Below are positions 10,568 to 41,210 of a DNA stretch of 41,210 nucleotides, piece by piece (position 1 is the stretch's first letter; each line of letters opens with the position of its first letter). The stretch is from a virus, in the IMG/VR virus record IMGVR_UViG_3300031507_000020, positions 1 to 41,210 of that record; one strand, written 5' to 3'. The translations under genes were made by a program, and so were the position numbers. Below the pieces are notes generated by a model. That model saw nothing but the letters and a program-made list of their open reading frames with translations, had not been told where the DNA came from and did no database searches.

Positions 10568-11182
10568 ATGAATGCACCAGAAACCAAAATCGCCCTTCCG
10601 GCCATCGGCGCTCCGTTCGCCGGCGGCTTCTTCATCGGCGTCCTTGAGGTCGGCGGCACCAGGTTCGCTCAGATCTGCGCGCCCAAGGCCGAAGGACTGG
10701 CCAAGCCGGCGACCTGGAACGAGTCCTGGAAGGCCATCGAAGGCGCCATGAGCCATCACGACGGCCTGGCCAACACCGAGGCGATGGCGGCCGCCGGCAG
10801 CGAACTGGCGCGGTGGGCGCGCGCCCAGACTATCGGCGGTTTTTCGGACTGGGCCATACCGGCGATCGACCAGCTGGAGCTGCGCTACCGCATCGGCAAG
10901 CCCACGACCCGGCCGAACGCCTGCTGGTATCGCTCCGGCATCAACATCAGCGCCTGCCCGCCCACACCGCCCTATACGCCGGAATTCCCGGCGCAAAGCG
11001 AGATCGCGATCTTCCGCGAGGGCGGCGCCGAGGCGCTCGAAGAGGAATGGTATTGGACCTCTACGCAGTACGCCGGCGGCAGCGACTGTGCCTGGGTTCA
11101 GCTCTTCGGCTACGGCGGCCAGGACGGCGTTCTCAAGTCGCGTTCCTACCCGGCCGTCCTCGTCCGCAGCCAGATCATTTAG
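10568..11182 (+). CDS. DGR target protein 1 (DUF1566-like variable protein)
   Basis: 204 residues. The second half has the DUF1566 / C-type-lectin-like pattern used by many DGR targets: DGLANTEAMAAAGSELARW, EEWYWTSTQYAGGSD, AWVQLFGYGGQ, then SYPAVLVR at the end. Residues 166-201 are encoded by variable repeat 1. The variable positions match AAC, AAT and other A-containing codons of the template. The ATG at 10568 has AGGAG 7 bases upstream; 10550 lacks this. There is no signal peptide or membrane segment. It is paralogous to the next gene. Ligand and location are unknown; known relatives are displayed on virions or cell surfaces. Confidence 0.85.
   Translation: MNAPETKIALPAIGAPFAGGFFIGVLEVGGTRFAQICAPKAEGLAKPATWNESWKAIEGAMSHHDGLANTEAMAAAGSELARWARAQTIGGFSDWAIPAIDQLELRYRIGKPTTRPNACWYRSGINISACPPTPPYTPEFPAQSEIAIFREGGAEALEEEWYWTSTQYAGGSDCAWVQLFGYGGQDGVLKSRSYPAVLVRSQII
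11063..11169 (+). repeat. DGR variable repeat 1 (VR1)
   Basis: 107 bases, the same length as the template at 12350-12456. By direct alignment there are 17 differences, and all 17 lie at template A positions (to T, G or C); non-A positions are identical. The last 26 bases match the template exactly and would hold the initiation site for mutagenic homing. Confidence 0.95.
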
Positions 11183-11185
11183 TCC

Positions 11186-11198
11186 TTCAACCCTTCGA
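11186..11198 (+). repeat. 13-base motif downstream of VR1
   Basis: TTCAACCCTTCGA begins 17 bases after the end of VR1. The identical motif begins 17 bases after VR2 (11741-11753) but is absent after the template. It may be a target-only cis element of the DGR or a scar of target-gene duplication. A partial copy (TTCAACCC) is at 10533. Confidence 0.5.
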
Positions 11199-11215
11199 TC
11201 ATTCGGGAGATTTTG

Positions 11216-11740
11216 ATGAGCAAAAAACCAGCGCCGGCGAAGCCGGCCGAAAAAAATTTCGAGCGCCTTTCCACGCCGCGCATAGGCGCCGCCTGGAAAG
11301 GCCAGGGCGGCTTCCTGCTCGGCGTCGTCCGCGGCGAAGGCGAGCAGCTGGACTACTGCCTGGTCAAGCCGCCGGAAGGCGTCGCGGCGATCGCCGGCGT
11401 CTGGGGCCAGACCACGCGCCTCGCCGGCGCCAAGAGTGAATACGACGGCATGGCCAATACCCGCGCCATGGCCGAGGCCGGCAGCGAGATCGCCAAGCAG
11501 GCCCTGGCACTCGAATTCGAAGGCCACCGCGATTACTACATCGCCGCCAGGCACGAGGCCCGCATCGCCTACGCCAACTGCTCCAACCTCTATGAGAGCC
11601 GCTGGTACTGGACGTCGACGCAGTACGCCGGCGACAGCGTCTATGCCTGGATTCAGCGCTTCGGCAACGGCGGCCAGTACGACGTTCACAAGTCGTATTC
11701 CTACCCGGCCGTCCTCGTCCGCAGAATTCCCATTCGCTAA
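11216..11740 (+). CDS. DGR target protein 2 (DUF1566-like variable protein)
   Basis: 174 residues, paralogous to target 1 in the C-terminal half: YDGMANTRAMAEAGSEIAKQ, SRWYWTSTQYAGDSVYAW, then SYPAVLVRRIPIR. Residues 135-170 are encoded by variable repeat 2. The N-terminal part differs from target 1 and begins with a lysine- and proline-rich stretch. The ATG at 11216 follows GGGAG with good spacing. VR2 is closer to the template (11 changes) than VR1 (17), so it was either rewritten more recently or under less selection. No secretion signal is seen. Confidence 0.85.
   Translation: MSKKPAPAKPAEKNFERLSTPRIGAAWKGQGGFLLGVVRGEGEQLDYCLVKPPEGVAAIAGVWGQTTRLAGAKSEYDGMANTRAMAEAGSEIAKQALALEFEGHRDYYIAARHEARIAYANCSNLYESRWYWTSTQYAGDSVYAWIQRFGNGGQYDVHKSYSYPAVLVRRIPIR
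11618..11724 (+). repeat. DGR variable repeat 2 (VR2)
   Basis: 107 bases aligned to the template at 12350-12456. There are 11 differences, all at template A positions; the other bases are identical, including the last 26. Confidence 0.95.
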
Positions 11741-11753
11741 TTCAACCCTTCGA
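11741..11753 (+). repeat. 13-base motif downstream of VR2
   Basis: Second copy of TTCAACCCTTCGA at the same 17-base distance from the end of its variable repeat as the copy at 11186-11198. Confidence 0.5.
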
Positions 11754-11777
11754 CAGAATTAGAAAAATTTTTTCAGC

Positions 11778-12179
11778 ATGGCTCTCCATACCGACACCCA
11801 GATTTACGGCGCCTGCATCGAGCTTTTCGGCGCCGCCGTCGACGTGATCTTGAATATGCGCAGGGACGTGAAGCACACCCTGGGCGGCAAGATCATCGAC
11901 GCCTGCACCGACCTCGACAAGCACATCCGCCGGGCCAACATGGCCAGCGACAAGGTGCCGCACATCGAGGCCTTGCTCGAGCGCCTGGAAGAGGTTGAAT
12001 TCGTAACGCGCATGTGCCGCGATCGGCGCTTCATTCCGACCACCGGCTACGCGAAACTGATTCTCCGCACCCAGTCAATTGGCAAGCAGGCAAACGGCTG
12101 GAAGAAGTTGGAGATGGCGAAGCGGCAAGAGCAACCTGGCCTGTTCCAGTATCGTCAAGGCGACCCTGGCCGTGCCTGA
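11778..12179 (+). CDS. avd: DGR accessory variability determinant (Avd-like)
   Basis: 133 residues, helical throughout: CIELFGAAVDVILNMRRDVK, IDACTDLDKHIRRAN, HIEALLERLEEVEFVTRMCR, then AKLILRTQSIGKQANGWKK. Size, basic helices and position between the target genes and the template match the Avd four-helix-bundle proteins, which form a pentameric barrel and bind the DGR reverse transcriptase and template RNA. No strong ribosome-binding site precedes the ATG at 11778. The 3' end overlaps a possible upstream extension of the reverse transcriptase frame. Confidence 0.8.
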   Translation: MALHTDTQIYGACIELFGAAVDVILNMRRDVKHTLGGKIIDACTDLDKHIRRANMASDKVPHIEALLERLEEVEFVTRMCRDRRFIPTTGYAKLILRTQSIGKQANGWKKLEMAKRQEQPGLFQYRQGDPGRA

Positions 12180-12333
12180 TTTTAATCTGGTCACGCCGCT
12201 GGCCACCAGCTCACCGGTGACCACCGACATGCGCACCACGGATACCACCGGCCAGCTGGATCTATTCAGCCACCCGGCCAGGTCTGGCGCAGTTGCCCCG
12301 CTGACAGGCGATTTCGGCCCTCGGCGCGGCGAC

Positions 12334-13572
12334 ATGGATAGCGTGAATGACGCAGAACGCCGGCAACAGCGACTATGCCTGGATTCAGAACTTCGGCAAC
12401 GGCAACCAGAACAACGATCACAAGTCGAATTCCTACCCGGCCGTCCTCGTCCGCAGATTGAACCGCCCACCCCGCCTGCTGATTTTTCTTTCGACCTCCT
12501 GGTGCAGGCATATCTCGACTGCCGCCGCAACAAGCGCACCAAGCCCAGCGCGCGCGACTTCGAGATCGGCCAGGAGGCCAACCTGTGGCACCTATATGCG
12601 GCGCTGCGCGATGGCACCTACCAGCCCGGCCGCTCCATCTGCTTTGTCATCACCAGGCCGAAGCCGCGTGAGGTCTGGGCGGCGCCGTTCACCGATCGCA
12701 TCGTCCACCATCTGCTCTACAACAAGGTGGCGCCGCGCTTCCATGCCGGCTTCATTGCTGACAGCTGCGCCTGCATTCCAGAGCGCGGCACCATGTACGC
12801 CGGCGGCCGCCTTGAGGCGAAGATCCGCAGCGTCACCCACAACTGGGCGCGGCCGGCGTGGTATCTCAAGTGTGACCTGGCCAACTTCTTCGTCTCGATC
12901 GACAAGCAGGTCCTGTTCCGCCTGCTGGCCAGGCGCATCAGTGAACCGTGGTGGCTGGCGATCGCCGGCGCCATCCTGTTCCACGATCCACGGCCGGACG
13001 TGCGCCTGCAGAGCCGCCCGGCCGCGCTCGCCCTGGTGCCGCCGCACAAGAGCCTGATGAACCAGCCGGCCGGTTTCGGCCTGCCGATCGGCAACCTCTC
13101 CAGCCAGTTTTTCGCCAACGTACTGCTCGACGCCCTGGACAAGCACGTCAAGCACCAGCTGCGAGCCCGGCACTACATCCGCTACGTCGACGACTTCCTG
13201 ATCCTGCATGAATCGAAGGCCCAGTTGCTCGCCTGGCGCGACGAGATCACCGCCTGGTTGCCGCGCGAACTCAACCTGCGCCTCAACCCGGCCAAGACCC
13301 TGCTGCACCAGATCGACCGCGGCGTCGACTTCGTCGGCCATTGGATCAAACCCTGGTATCACACCACCCGCCGGCGCACCCTGCGCAGCGCCCTGCAGCG
13401 CCTTGCGTCCGCCGACGCCGGCGACGTGCACACCACGGCCAACAGCTACTTCGGGATGTTGCGCCAGGTCCCGCATGGCCACCGCGACCGCGCGCGGCTG
13501 GCCAACCTGGTGCGCGATCGCGGACACGCGGTCGACGGGGCACTGACCAAAACCTATCGGAGGTATCCATGA
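12334..13572 (+). CDS. DGR reverse transcriptase
   Basis: 412 residues from the ATG at 12334. Landmarks are: PKPREVWAAPFTDRIVHHLL and FIADSCACIPERGT in the fingers; YLKCDLANFFVSIDK carrying the first catalytic aspartate; IGNLSSQ at 252-258, the DGR-type form of motif 4; and YVDD at 284-287 with the other two aspartates. It copies the template RNA with errors at adenines and feeds the cDNA into the variable repeats. The start is uncertain: the frame is open back to 12079, GTG at 12172 and ATG at 12229 are possible, and the template lies inside the first 42 codons. The conserved protein begins only near DFSFDLLVQAYLDCRR. Confidence 0.92.
   Translation: MDSVNDAERRQQRLCLDSELRQRQPEQRSQVEFLPGRPRPQIEPPTPPADFSFDLLVQAYLDCRRNKRTKPSARDFEIGQEANLWHLYAALRDGTYQPGRSICFVITRPKPREVWAAPFTDRIVHHLLYNKVAPRFHAGFIADSCACIPERGTMYAGGRLEAKIRSVTHNWARPAWYLKCDLANFFVSIDKQVLFRLLARRISEPWWLAIAGAILFHDPRPDVRLQSRPAALALVPPHKSLMNQPAGFGLPIGNLSSQFFANVLLDALDKHVKHQLRARHYIRYVDDFLILHESKAQLLAWRDEITAWLPRELNLRLNPAKTLLHQIDRGVDFVGHWIKPWYHTTRRRTLRSALQRLASADAGDVHTTANSYFGMLRQVPHGHRDRARLANLVRDRGHAVDGALTKTYRRYP
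12350..12456 (+). repeat. DGR template repeat (TR)
   Basis: 107 bases that align without gaps to VR1 and VR2. Read in the target frame it contains seven AAC codons and one AAT codon, the usual design because mutation of both A positions gives many residues and never a stop. It holds 30 A residues, of which 17 are changed in VR1 and 11 in VR2. It lies between avd and the reverse transcriptase core, overlapping a possible 5' extension of the latter in another frame. Confidence 0.95.
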
Positions 13573-14499: not shown

Positions 14500-15677
14500 C
14501 GGTCCGGAAGTTCAAGACCGAGCAGCGCATCCAGATTGCCTTCAGCTACCGCGGCGCCGAGTGCCGCGAGCTGATGCCGCCCTGCAAGATCACCGAGGCG
14601 GCCAAGACCCACGCGGCAGGCCTTCGCGCCGAGATCCTGCGCAAGATCGCGGCCGGCATATTTGTCTATGCTGACTATTTCAAGGATTCGCCGCGCGCGG
14701 AGATCTATGGCACCAACCCGTCACGCCAGACCGTCGGTGAGCTGCTGCGGGCCCAGCGCACGACCTACCGGCACCAGGCCGCCAACGGCACGCTCTCCCC
14801 ATCGACCCTGGCCGGCTACGAGAAGGCCATCAAGGGCAAGCTGCTCGGCCGCTGGGATCAGACGCTCCTGGGCGACGCGACGCCGGCGGCGCTGCGCGAC
14901 TGGATTGGCGGCCTGGGCATCACCGCCAAAAGCTCGAGGAATATCCTGACGCCGCTCCGGTCGGTGTTCGAGGACGCGCTCAATGACGGGCTGGTCCTGT
15001 TCAACCCCTTCGATCGGATATCGCTCAAGAAGCTGCTGAAACAGACCGCCAAGGCCAGCGAGTATGAGGTCGACCCGTTTGACCACGCCGAGCGCGACGT
15101 GCTGCTGCGCGCCTGCAGGAGCGACGAGCGGGCCATGCTGCAGTTCTGGCTCAACACCGGCCTGCGCCCGGGCGAGCTGATCGCCCTGGAATGGCCGAAG
15201 GTAGACTGGGTGCATACGTGCGCACGCGTCGACCTGAATCGCGTGGCCAAGGTCGACAAGGCGCCGAAGACCGAAGCCGGCATCCGCGACGTCGAGCTGA
15301 ACGAGCCGGCGATCGCCGCCTTGACGGCGCAGAAGGAAGCGACCTTCCTGGCCAACGGCCGGGTGTTTCTCAACCCCAGGACCGGCGAGGCCTGGGACAC
15401 CGATGCCCAGCTCCGGAAGACCTTCTGGGAGCCGCTATGCAAGCGCGCCGGCGTGCGCTACCGCAACCCCTACCAGGTGCGCCACACCTACGCCAGCGCG
15501 GCCCTGACGGCCGGCGCCAACCCATTCTGGCTGGCCAACCAGCTCGGCCACGTCGACGGCGAGATGGTGTTCAAGATCTACGGCAAGTGGATCCCGGCCG
15601 ACTACAAACAGGCCAAGTTTGCACGCGCATCGGATGCTGTAATCGAGACGGCTAAGCTGGCGCTGGTAAAGACTTAA
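14466..15677 (+). CDS. int: Tyrosine recombinase integrase
   Basis: 403 residues. An N-terminal arm-binding domain (RIQIAFSYRGAECRELMPPC, DUF3596-like), a core-binding SAM-like domain at about 88-190, and the catalytic domain. Catalytic landmarks are R234 (NTGLRPGEL), R339 (YQVRHTYAS), H362 (LGH) and the probable nucleophile Y372 (IYGKW). The first box-II residue is Y rather than H, as in several phage integrases. It integrates and excises the phage at attP just downstream (core near 16064-16088). Its last 20 codons are duplicated at 15960-16022. Confidence 0.93.
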   Translation: MDQGTRQNRGVTVRKFKTEQRIQIAFSYRGAECRELMPPCKITEAAKTHAAGLRAEILRKIAAGIFVYADYFKDSPRAEIYGTNPSRQTVGELLRAQRTTYRHQAANGTLSPSTLAGYEKAIKGKLLGRWDQTLLGDATPAALRDWIGGLGITAKSSRNILTPLRSVFEDALNDGLVLFNPFDRISLKKLLKQTAKASEYEVDPFDHAERDVLLRACRSDERAMLQFWLNTGLRPGELIALEWPKVDWVHTCARVDLNRVAKVDKAPKTEAGIRDVELNEPAIAALTAQKEATFLANGRVFLNPRTGEAWDTDAQLRKTFWEPLCKRAGVRYRNPYQVRHTYASAALTAGANPFWLANQLGHVDGEMVFKIYGKWIPADYKQAKFARASDAVIETAKLALVKT

Positions 15678-15708: not shown

Positions 15709-15987
15709 ATGAATGACAAACTAAAATCAATGGCGAAGAAAGCCGGCCTTTGGGAAACAGATGGCAGCAAAGGTGGCCATGGCTACGTCGGCGGGAATGA
15801 TGCGGCGCTCGAGGCGTTCGCCAAATTGGTGGCGGAGGACTGCGCAAATCGCGCCGAGTTTGCCGAAGCTGATCCAACGGTGATTTGGTCCGACATCCGC
15901 AAAATGTCCGCCAATGCCATCCGGGTCGAGTACAAAATTGCGCCCAATCCAATCAGATCAAATTCGCACGCGAATCGCACGCAGTGA
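15709..15987 (+). CDS. Small hypothetical protein inserted beside attP
   Basis: 92 residues from an ATG 5 bases after GGAGG. The pattern MKK-GLW..., DAALEAFAKLVAEDCANRAE resembles a widespread class of small phage proteins with no known role. It lies between the intact integrase and a duplicated integrase tail, and its last codons overlap that tail and the integrase arm sites in another frame. The arrangement suggests insertion into the 3' end of an ancestral integrase gene. Confidence 0.6.
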   Translation: MNDKLKSMAKKAGLWETDGSKGGHGYVGGNDAALEAFAKLVAEDCANRAEFAEADPTVIWSDIRKMSANAIRVEYKIAPNPIRSNSHANRTQ

Positions 15988-16022
15988 TCGAGACGGCCAA
16001 GACAGCATTGGTAAAGACTTGA
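15960..16022 (+). pseudogene. Duplicated C-terminal tail of integrase
   Basis: In one frame this stretch encodes KFARESHAVIETAKTALVKT followed by a stop; the integrase ends KFARASDAVIETAKLALVKT followed by a stop. Seventeen of 20 residues are identical, while the DNA has drifted mainly at third positions. It is a remnant or donor copy of the integrase 3' end separated from the full gene by the small gene at 15709-15987. Confidence 0.8.
15963..15981 (+). repeat. Left pair of integrase arm-type sites
   Basis: TTCGCACG (15963-15970) and ATCGCACG (15974-15981), 11 bases apart, repeat the motif found three times on the other side of the att core (16170-16200). Helical spacing and position support integrase arm binding. 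Confidence 0.6.
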
Positions 16023-38850: not shown

Positions 38851-40584
38851 TTAGAGCGCGAGGACGCCGCGCTCTTCGTACACGCTGGTGCTGTCCGCGA
38901 CGTAGCAGCGCGACATGGCCACGATGGTGGCGATCGCGGCGTCGATTTTCTTGGCCGGGCCGCCTTTGCGCGGGAAAATGTTCTCGTTTCGGTCTTCAAA
39001 GCACTCGACATTCGAGAGCATCCAGACGTAGGCAGGGTTGCCATCGTGGTGAAACCGGCCGCCGTTGACCAGGGCGCGGATGTTTTTCATCGGTTCCGAC
39101 AGGTGCTTGACGTTCATCGGCACCGAAACGACGGTGAAACCCTTCTCCTGCAGGTCCGGCGCGATGGCCGCGGCGCCCCATTCGTCGATCGCGATCTCGT
39201 GGATGACGTGATTTTCCGCCGTGGCCTCGACGTCTTCGCCGATCTGGTTGATGTTGATCATGTTGCCGGCGGTCTGCGTGATGTGGCCGTTGGCCACCCA
39301 GCCCTGGTAGACCTTTTTCTTCGGGTCCTTGACGGCCTCTTCGGGCACGTAGTTTTTCGAGAAAGCGTAGTAGTGCGAGAGGCCTTCGATCTCGCGACGG
39401 AACAGCATCACGTCGCTGGCGATGTCTTCCTTGCTAGCCAGGTCCAGGCCGTGGTCGCAGACCTCGCCCTTGAAGCCCTCCAGGCAAAGCGTCGGGTCCC
39501 CCAGGGCCTGCAGCTTCTCCAGGTTGAGCCAGGGAGAGGCGGCGCCGACCCACACGTTCAGGTGTTTGGTCTTGAACGTGTTCTGCTTCTGCGCGTCGGC
39601 GATGGCTTCGAGCTGCTGGGCGCGCAGGAATTCGGCGTTGATCGAGACGCCGTAGTTCGGGTTGGCCTTGATCAGGGCCTCGACGGTGGTCCAGTCGTCG
39701 GTTTCGTCGATGCCGTAGATGATGCCGAAGCGCTGCTCGTTCTCGATTACGCCTTCGAGGATCTTCTGCAGCTCCTGCTGGTGCAGATAACACGGGCCGC
39801 CGACGTTGTCGCCGGAGGTGGTGATCATCACCATCATCGGCTGCGAGCGCGCGCCCATGCCGGTGCGCATGGTGTCGTACAAATTCGAAGTCTTGTGCTC
39901 GTGGTACTCGTCGACGATGGCACAGCTGGGCGACGCGCCGTCGCCCGGGTCGCCGATGATCGGCTCGAACTTGCTGTTCGTGTCCATCACGGACATGTTC
40001 GAAGGATTGAGCGCTGACGGCACGTACACACCGTAGCGTGAGCAATACTCCGGGCTGGCGCGCGCCATCAGGAACGCCGGGCGGAAAACTTCGCGCGCCT
40101 GATCTTCCGAGGTCGCGCCGCTGTATATCTCGGCGCCGAATTCGCCGTCCGCGGCCAGCATGAAGTTGCCGATGCCGGCGGCCTTGGTCGATTTCGCGTT
40201 TTTTCGCGGCACGAAAAGGTCCAGCATCGTGAAGCGGCGCTTTTTTGTCTCGCGATTCACCCAGCCGAAGGCGACGCAGAGAATGAAAATCTGCCATGGC
40301 TCGAGGCGGATGCGCTCGCGGCGGCCGGCCCAGTCGCCCTTAACGTGCGGCATGAGCTCGATAAAGCCGCAGATCCGGCTCCCTGGGCGGTACTTTTTCG
40401 GGTTCTCCGGGTCCGCCAGATCGTCGAGCTCGGGGTTGAACTCGTAGATCCAGCCGATTGCGGCGCGCGCCAGGTCGTTCAGCTGGCGCTGGCATGCGAG
40501 GCGCGTCCACTTGCAGGCCGGAATGATGCCAGCGACGACGTCCTGGGCGTACTGCAGCGCGATCGCCGCGTAGTCCTTTTTCAT
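38851..40584 (-). CDS. terL: Large terminase subunit
   Basis: 577 residues. The ATPase part has an adenine/Walker A-like segment VPRKNAKST at 125-133 and Walker B CAIVDEYHEHK with D225-E226; a coupling motif MITTSGDN follows. The C-terminal nuclease domain should lie from about 350 on, with aspartates in CDHGLDLASKED. It powers DNA packaging and cuts genome ends. The ATG at 40584 overlaps the small terminase stop (ATGA); sequence upstream in this frame is a shadow of the small terminase gene. Confidence 0.93.
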   Translation of the reverse strand: MKKDYAAIALQYAQDVVAGIIPACKWTRLACQRQLNDLARAAIGWIYEFNPELDDLADPENPKKYRPGSRICGFIELMPHVKGDWAGRRERIRLEPWQIFILCVAFGWVNRETKKRRFTMLDLFVPRKNAKSTKAAGIGNFMLAADGEFGAEIYSGATSEDQAREVFRPAFLMARASPEYCSRYGVYVPSALNPSNMSVMDTNSKFEPIIGDPGDGASPSCAIVDEYHEHKTSNLYDTMRTGMGARSQPMMVMITTSGDNVGGPCYLHQQELQKILEGVIENEQRFGIIYGIDETDDWTTVEALIKANPNYGVSINAEFLRAQQLEAIADAQKQNTFKTKHLNVWVGAASPWLNLEKLQALGDPTLCLEGFKGEVCDHGLDLASKEDIASDVMLFRREIEGLSHYYAFSKNYVPEEAVKDPKKKVYQGWVANGHITQTAGNMININQIGEDVEATAENHVIHEIAIDEWGAAAIAPDLQEKGFTVVSVPMNVKHLSEPMKNIRALVNGGRFHHDGNPAYVWMLSNVECFEDRNENIFPRKGGPAKKIDAAIATIVAMSRCYVADSTSVYEERGVLAL

Positions 40585-41132
40585 ATGTCGCCGAAACTGG
40601 ACGGCGCGTTCGGATCGTCGAACAAGCCGCGCTGGCGCGTGTTGCTGGCGTTCACGCGGCCGCGCGAGCTGGGCGACATGCCGAACGCGGCCAGGAACTT
40701 GTCGACCTGGTCGGCGGCCTTGTTCTTCATCACCCAGTAGGGCGAGTAACCGAGGTGGCCGTTGGGCGTGAGGATGGTGTAGCCGTCGCCACCAACGTAG
40801 GCGACGTTTCTTTCCTCCGCGGCAGCTCGCGCTTTTTCGGCCGCGGCCACCGCGCGCTGCAGCTGCAGCTCGGCGTAGACCATGTGCGCCCACGCCTGGC
40901 AGTAGAGCGCAAGCGCGGCGCGGTCGATTTTCGAGATCAGGCCATAGCGCTCCAGCTCCGGCGTGATGCGCTTCCACTCTTTGCGCGCCTCCTTCAGGAG
41001 GTGCGGCGGGCAGCCCGGAATCTCGACTTCGGGCTGCAGCGATTCGGTCAGTTCATGCAGCGGCCGGTGGCCAGGATTGTCGCGCAGCCGATGCACGTTC
41101 GCCGGCAGCGGCTTCGGTCCACGTTGGCCCAC
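40581..41132 (-). CDS. terS: Small terminase subunit, P27 family
   Basis: 183 residues. MGQRGPKPLPANVHRLRDNP, then PGCPPHLLKEARKEWKRITP and a helical middle (QAWAHMVYAELQLQRAVAAA), match the P27 family of small terminases. It recognises the packaging site, often in or near its own gene. If the genome is circular the HNH gene lies about 100 bases upstream across the window ends. Confidence 0.9.
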   Translation of the reverse strand: MGQRGPKPLPANVHRLRDNPGHRPLHELTESLQPEVEIPGCPPHLLKEARKEWKRITPELERYGLISKIDRAALALYCQAWAHMVYAELQLQRAVAAAEKARAAAEERNVAYVGGDGYTILTPNGHLGYSPYWVMKNKAADQVDKFLAAFGMSPSSRGRVNASNTRQRGLFDDPNAPSSFGDI

Positions 41133-41210
41133 AATTCACCTCTTGAAAATGACCAGGCGGGAAGCCCGGGATACCCCCTCCCCCAAAACCTGCGCGAAAA
41201 AAAATCTGGC

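Follow-up and report, generated by a model that had tools for sequence, protein, structure and literature searches.

The window analysed here, the entire 41,210-base virus record IMGVR_UViG_3300031507_000020 from IMG/VR, carries a diversity-generating retroelement (DGR) at 10568-13572 on the plus strand, from the start of the first target gene to the stop of the reverse transcriptase (RT) gene. Two target genes (T1 and T2), each with a variable repeat (VR) at the C-terminus of its product, are followed by the accessory variability determinant gene avd, a structured RNA of the Rfam family RT-15 (RF03018), the template repeat (TR) and the RT gene. An earlier note on this DNA had proposed that the DGR is complete and has one TR serving two targets, and that proposal is backed by the sequence, by protein families and by adenine-limited divergence among near-identical relatives. 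All of its coordinates are correct, and the structured RNA between avd and the TR, as well as the RT frame that crosses the TR, had been overlooked in it. The DGR itself is of a known kind, and what appears to be new is its RNA architecture, in which the RT-15 RNA and the TR are likely to form one template RNA.

Adenine-limited rewriting and the proteins of the cassette

The TR (12350-12456, plus strand) is 107 nucleotides (nt) long, and 30 of the 107 are adenines. VR1 (11063-11169) and VR2 (11618-11724), also on the plus strand, align to the TR without gaps, with 17/107 and 11/107 differences, respectively. Every one of these differences falls at a TR adenine, such that the positions and mismatch counts reported earlier were reproduced by gapless alignment. 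The chance of adenine-only mismatches is about 5e-12 for VR1 (17/17) and about 2e-7 for VR2 (11/11). At the protein level, 12 residues are changed inside VR1, one more at its edge and nine in VR2, mostly at AAC or AAT codons. With all TR adenines free to vary, about 7e17 protein variants could be reached. Since the TR and VRs differ only at adenines and are flanked by Avd and a DGR-type RT, the system in the window is a DGR.

The adenine bias is also seen with neutral scoring in related loci. Ungapped alignment of 206 TR-VR pairs gives a mismatch rate of 39.7% at A, as compared to 0.4-1.0% at C, G and T, with changes from A to G, T and C in the ratio 1298:881:379. Given that neutral scoring reproduces the adenine-limited mismatch, the bias is not produced by the search. 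A signal from the adenine-biased finder alone was rejected, as the finder yields 0 matches when C or T is taken to be mutable and 5 when G is, versus 71 for A. Chance resemblance of the TR and VRs was rejected by the mismatch statistics together with the neutral alignment. No further VRs were found elsewhere in the record, in which two additional matches of 17-19 nt are weak. Within the terminase gene, the stretch at 39261-39279 on the minus strand matches the first bases of the TR at 18 of 19 positions, probably by chance.

Each VR is at the C-terminus of a protein with an Lcl_C or C-type-lectin-like fold, consistent with the earlier expectation that such systems rewrite the C-termini of ligand-binding proteins. 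T1 (10568-11182, plus strand; 204 amino acids, aa) matches phrog_4245 at 6e-24 and PF07603 at 3e-7, the latter under the curated Pfam cut-off. T2 (11216-11740, plus strand; 174 aa) is a paralogue of T1 and matches phrog_4245 at 6e-26 and Lcl_C at 3e-4, the latter below the cut-off. The AlphaFold models of T1 and T2 have a mean predicted local distance difference test score (pLDDT) of 93.8 and 91.8, respectively. The closest PDB match to T1 is the C-terminal domain of Legionella Lcl (8q4e), followed by weak matches to C-type lectins, and comparison with viral models matched T1 to DUF1566 domains, some of them within tail-fibre-like proteins. Relatives have small targets throughout, with medians of 164 and 197 aa. 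In nine related loci (L016, L035, L049, L063, L115, L118, L127, L139 and L154), there is a third (and fourth) target at a distance of 3-5 kb upstream, outside of the cassette, and these are also small and lectin-fold-like.

The product of avd (11778-12179, plus strand; 133 aa), previously described as an Avd-sized helical protein, can be assigned as Avd by its match to phrog_3206, 'Avd protein of DGR', at 5e-21. It matches NF033474 at 2e-12, below the cut-off, and the match to bAvd is just below its own cut-off. The conserved part of the RT (12484-13572, plus strand) matches phrog_1423 at 8e-108 and contains the YVDD and DGR-type IGNLSSQ motifs that had been noted before. Its profile matches DGR RT structures 8ub7-8ube, of which 8ub7, from the structure family of the BPP-1 RT, is the best solved relative by sequence (1e-47). 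Membership of the RT in the DGR clade is supported by the motifs and by the phrog_1423 and 8ub7 matches, and the RT families favour a DGR over a retron.

Searches with the RT led to seven first relatives and then, across collections of viruses and genomes, to 160 loci; in the genome collection, a single RT query returned no relatives and an alignment query returned 80. The named hosts of the relatives are mostly Pseudomonas, Burkholderiales and Rhodocyclales. A TR-VR pair is present in 161/168 loci and at least two VRs in 136/168, and 323 TR-VR pairs contain 4004 differences at A versus 53 at other bases. One Sterolibacterium genome (G001) carries two different RT-15 DGR cassettes (L093 and L094). 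The earlier note had predicted that VRs compared across relatives would differ at template-A sites, and three near-identical cassette pairs differ almost only there: L051/L054 at 14/95 VR-A sites and 0/2936 other sites, L043/L044 at 14/35 and 1/2048, and L031/L041 at 17/33 and 1/1878. Such a pattern argues that the lineage is active, where the signature that suggests activity is seen in the relatives rather than in this phage.

The RT-15 RNA and the helices at the edges of the template

The RT-15 RNA (12135-12353, plus strand) begins at the end of avd and reaches 4 nt into the TR. It scores 134.3 bits, as compared to a gathering score of 82, and covariation over 84 sequences supports eight helices. 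RT-15 is present in the window and in 7/7 of the first relatives. By comparison of coordinates, 11/11 RT-15 matches in ten whole genomes are located immediately upstream of DGR RT loci, and with stricter filters none was found in 368 other genomes from the class of G003.

Covariation was scanned for every column pair over 105 non-redundant regions with no structure assumed. The RT-15 helices came out on top, and the second-ranked pair was 12183-12460, the two members of which are 246 alignment columns apart. This pair belongs to a helix, PL, with its 5' strand at 12181-12189 (UUUAAUCUG) and its 3' strand at 12454-12462 (CAGAUUGAA), both on the plus strand, the latter straddling the 3' edge of the TR. 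PL is outside of the Rfam model and joins the conserved RT-15 element to the TR 3' edge. A junction helix, PJ, is formed by 12191-12196 and 12341-12346 (plus strand), with 98.6% of cells paired and with compensatory changes. In the window, PL has 9/9 standard pairs and PJ 6/6.

PL was evaluated alone in an independent alignment of 84 sequences, where 85.1% of positions are paired as compared to 76.4% on shuffling (0/500) and 26-45% when the strands are slid. On the RT tree, the key PL pair shows 14 independent compensatory double changes, versus at most 6 with shuffled tips and 1-2 for misregistered controls. Therefore, PL as an artefact of the alignment or the tree was rejected by the slid, shuffled and tree-based controls. 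The covarying PL bases are located just 3' of the TR, beyond the region in which the TR and VRs agree. The boundaries of the TR also follow the helices across the family: TR homology starts a median of 6 nt past PJ (5-95% range, 4-7) and ends a median of 4 nt into PL (1-6), despite variable TR length. Given that PL sits at the TR 3' edge and PJ ends just before the TR, the TR is a loop held between both helices.

Several points weigh against this architecture. Single-sequence folding of the window misses both PL and PJ, with a minimum free energy of -118.4 kcal/mol as compared to -114.9 kcal/mol when both are forced. Energy folding was dropped as support for the RNA, and, because it finds neither helix, the claim for PL and PJ is based on evolution rather than on thermodynamics. 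The PL pair 12184-12459 is formed in only about half of the sequences, and the alignments used for pair counts contain related sequences. The RT coding sequence directly past the TR could hold structure too. In addition, a second isolate of the phage was not found.

The proposed template RNA, its probable role and the alternatives

On balance, the window is likely to hold a DGR of the working type, in which RT-15 and the TR together make up a single template RNA, with a scaffold on the 5' side that brackets the TR. Based on covariation, RT-15 folds into a conserved multi-stem scaffold 5' of the TR, and its AAUCUG element and the bases upstream of it pair with the TR 3' edge to give PL. By analogy with the Bordetella phage BPP-1, RT-15 would recruit RT-Avd, PL would set the TR 3' end at the RT active site to start the complementary DNA (cDNA), and PJ or RT-15 would stop its synthesis. 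RT-15, PL and PJ would in this way assume the roles held in BPP-1 by the spacer 3' of the TR and by the avd end. The RT-15 scaffold, then, probably positions initiation and termination. Avd and the RT would make an adenine-mutagenised cDNA of the TR, and this cDNA would replace VR1 and VR2 at the C-termini of the two small lectin-fold proteins. The mutation pattern attests to the rewriting, and retrohoming itself would be expected from known DGR biology; priming by RT-15 is likewise a role suggested by analogy. In order of firmness, adenine-limited rewriting comes first, the RNA architecture next and the priming role last.

A more specific version can be put forward only tentatively, although it is plausible: a DGR lineage in which RT-15 clamps the TR 3' edge and primes or positions the RT from upstream in a retron-like manner, the two helices set the bounds of the TR, and the TR serves both as template and as RT coding sequence. 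The RT frame of the window (12079-13572) runs without a stop from RT-15 across the TR, and homology starts at residue 49-51 of the RT query (12478-12484). The candidate in-frame starts are ATG 12229, which is inside RT-15, ATG 12334, GTG 12343 and GTG 12502; there is no ATG in the RT frame 3' of the TR in the window. The frame is open across the TR in 89/99 loci. Therefore, the RT may be translated through its own template, and if so a leader role for RT-15 deserves weighing, either as a rival or as an added function.

Expressed as a rival, the system would be an ordinary DGR of the BPP-1 type, with RT-15 as a regulatory element of its own, for instance a translation leader of the RT messenger RNA, and with the priming RNA 3' of the TR in the RT coding sequence. 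A leader would fit with the conserved AUG inside RT-15, which is in the RT frame in 69 of the 88 loci that have this AUG and is followed by an open frame in 65 of those 69, with the lack of any ATG, GTG or TTG in the RT frame past the TR in 48/99 loci, and with the annotation of the RT of Burkholderia phage Magia from that same AUG. This explanation is nonetheless judged unlikely, given that PL connects RT-15 to the TR edge itself, that the TR boundaries follow PL and PJ, and that the top covarying pairs lie in RT-15 and PL, with none of them in an RT-coding helix 3' of the TR. RT-15 may serve both as leader and as scaffold. Less probable still is a decayed or silent DGR with VRs that record past activity. 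The missing second isolate would be compatible with it, as would the uncertain start codon of an RT with no ATG just past the TR, but every open reading frame is intact, the RT retains its catalytic YVDD, PL and PJ are fully paired in the window and adenine-only change is recent in relatives.

The start and stop of DGR reverse transcription have been worked out on BPP-1, where the responsible RNA is 3' of the template. If the template RNA with a 5' scaffold is borne out, a widespread family whose RNA is placed 5' rather than 3' of the TR and which has a covariation-backed clamp would represent a second solution to initiation and termination. It would allow for single-base tests of initiation, in which one pair is swapped and then compensated, it would explain the purpose of Rfam RT-15, and it would provide another compact cassette for targeted protein diversification.

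Flanking elements, genome setting and comparison with known systems

Tandem octamers follow both VRs on the plus strand: CATTTAGT CCTTCAAC CCTTCGAT CATTCGGG after VR1 (11176-11207) and (AATTCC) CATTCGCT AATTCAAC CCTTCGAC after VR2 (11725-11754). Over 199 VR flanks there is an 8-nt period, with a lag-8 identity of 0.467 versus 0.274 on shuffling (z=36) and 0.214 after the TR, and at least two phased units are found in 147/199 VR flanks as compared to 0/102 TR flanks. The motif is about 27 nt long with four phased TT dinucleotides and usually begins right past the last shared base. The octamers could, with somewhat less than balanced support, be stop-codon arrays that cover several frames, as opposed to a site recognised during cDNA integration. 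All three frames are closed by stops within 30 nt in 76/199 VR flanks, versus 10 when shuffled and 23 when columns are permuted, and a period of 7 or 8 shifts the frame at each unit; the phased TT, however, is 93-98% conserved, far above the stops. The phased octamer after most VRs is a target element as testable as the RNA. Other phage DGRs (L185-L191, and BPP-1 as L173) also have tandem repeats of 7-8 nt right after the VR, including Lagaffe (AATCTGGC AATCTGAA AATCTGGC), BalMu-1 and ZX4290, so phased repeats after the VR may be general.

In BPP-1, a GC-rich hairpin of 7-10 base pairs (bp) with a GRNA loop is needed 4-34 bp after the VR (PMC3240598). No GRNA-loop hairpin was found after the VRs in the window, where the best perfect stem after either VR is 5 bp. 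Stems of at least 7 bp occur in 30/208 VR flanks of the family, with GRNA in none of the loops listed. A BPP-1-like hairpin or cruciform after the VR was therefore rejected, as it is not in the window and is rare in the family.

The plus-strand DGR has a ParB-like gene on one side and an integrase on the other, and the genes for the head, sheath, tape measure and baseplate occupy the minus strand between about 16 and 41 kb. The DGR targets sit in the early/lysogeny region, and the host element of the DGR is a temperate, contractile-tailed phage. T1 and T2 are free-standing, outside of the tail module and on the strand opposite to the tail genes, and so tail-mediated tropism switching is not supported by the layout. 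A 59-nt direct repeat (15597-15655 and 15942-16000; 76% identical), the first copy of which makes up the 3' terminus of the integrase gene, is possibly an attachment site or an integrase remnant. The two record ends (1-478 and 40581-41210) hold an HNH gene and a terminase-small-like gene, which would become neighbours on joining of the ends. The record may thus represent a circularly permuted genome that is close to complete, although a terminal repeat was not found.

The cassettes most like that of the window are in Pseudomonas phages Cruim01, Haboob, LPPA56 and SC_8_H2H8_2017, Burkholderia phage Magia and Shewanella phage vB_Sb_QDWS. All six share the order T1-T2-avd-RT-15-TR-RT and have one TR with two adenine-only VRs, and their RTs are 56-62% identical to that of the window. 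Their deposited annotation gives at most the RT, Avd, a lectin-fold target and Rfam RT-15, and never joins RT-15 to the TR. The RNAs of the window and of all tested relatives score well above gathering for RF03018. The Rfam model, however, stops 4 nt inside the TR and leaves AAUCUG unpaired, given that its partner at the TR 3' edge is outside of the model. Unlike the bare Rfam entry, then, RT-15 here is tied to a DGR template. No mention of RT-15 RNA or RF03018 was found in the literature searched, the coverage of which lacked the primary RT-15 papers.

The earlier label of 'BPP-1 type' is right only as regards the overall logic. As with the BPP-1 DGR (mtd-avd-TR-brt; RF03022, Phage_DGR), the window has adenine-only TR/VR differences, Avd, a DGR-type RT and a C-terminal VR on a target with a C-type-lectin fold. 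The label fails in that the RNA is on the opposite side of the TR, the GRNA-loop hairpin is missing from the window and the targets are outside of the tail module, whereas Mtd of BPP-1 is a tail protein. Statements on BPP-1 are based on PMC12875486 and PMC3240598. In BPP-1, avd abuts the TR and a 144-nt spacer with RNA follows 3' of it; RT-Avd recruitment and priming are functions of that spacer, and synthesis is halted by a motif in avd (PMC12875486). In the window, no structured spacer RNA of this kind is found 3' of the TR: about 170 nt with RT-15, the Rfam RNA, lie 5' of the TR, and the TR is set against the RT domain. Across the family, the distance from the TR end to the RT-domain anchor has a median of 10 nt (5-95% range, -7 to 18), as compared to roughly 100-300 nt from TR to RT domain in BPP-1, BalMu-1, ZX4290, ARM81mr, Lagaffe, VHML and ANMV-1. 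In those seven phage DGRs, the TR is close behind avd wherever avd is annotated, and both Phage_DGR (BPP-1) and RT-14 (BalMu-1) are in the spacer 3' of the TR. With its RNA 5' of the TR, the arrangement in the window is therefore a mirror of that in BPP-1. The BalMu-1 match to RT-14 (L186, 3798-3941) is directly 3' of the DGR TR, such that RT-14, too, appears to be the template RNA of a DGR. Bacteroides phage F2 (L185) is intermediate, with 129 nt between avd and the TR and 39 nt between the TR and the RT, and is possibly another lineage with a 5' scaffold.

The window also resembles retrons, the msr-msd RNA of which likewise has a structured, possibly priming RNA 5' of the copied part, with a closing helix in which the 5' part pairs with the 3' edge. 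Unlike in a retron, the RT of the window is of DGR type and is accompanied by Avd and by VR rewriting. The resemblance to retrons is topological only.

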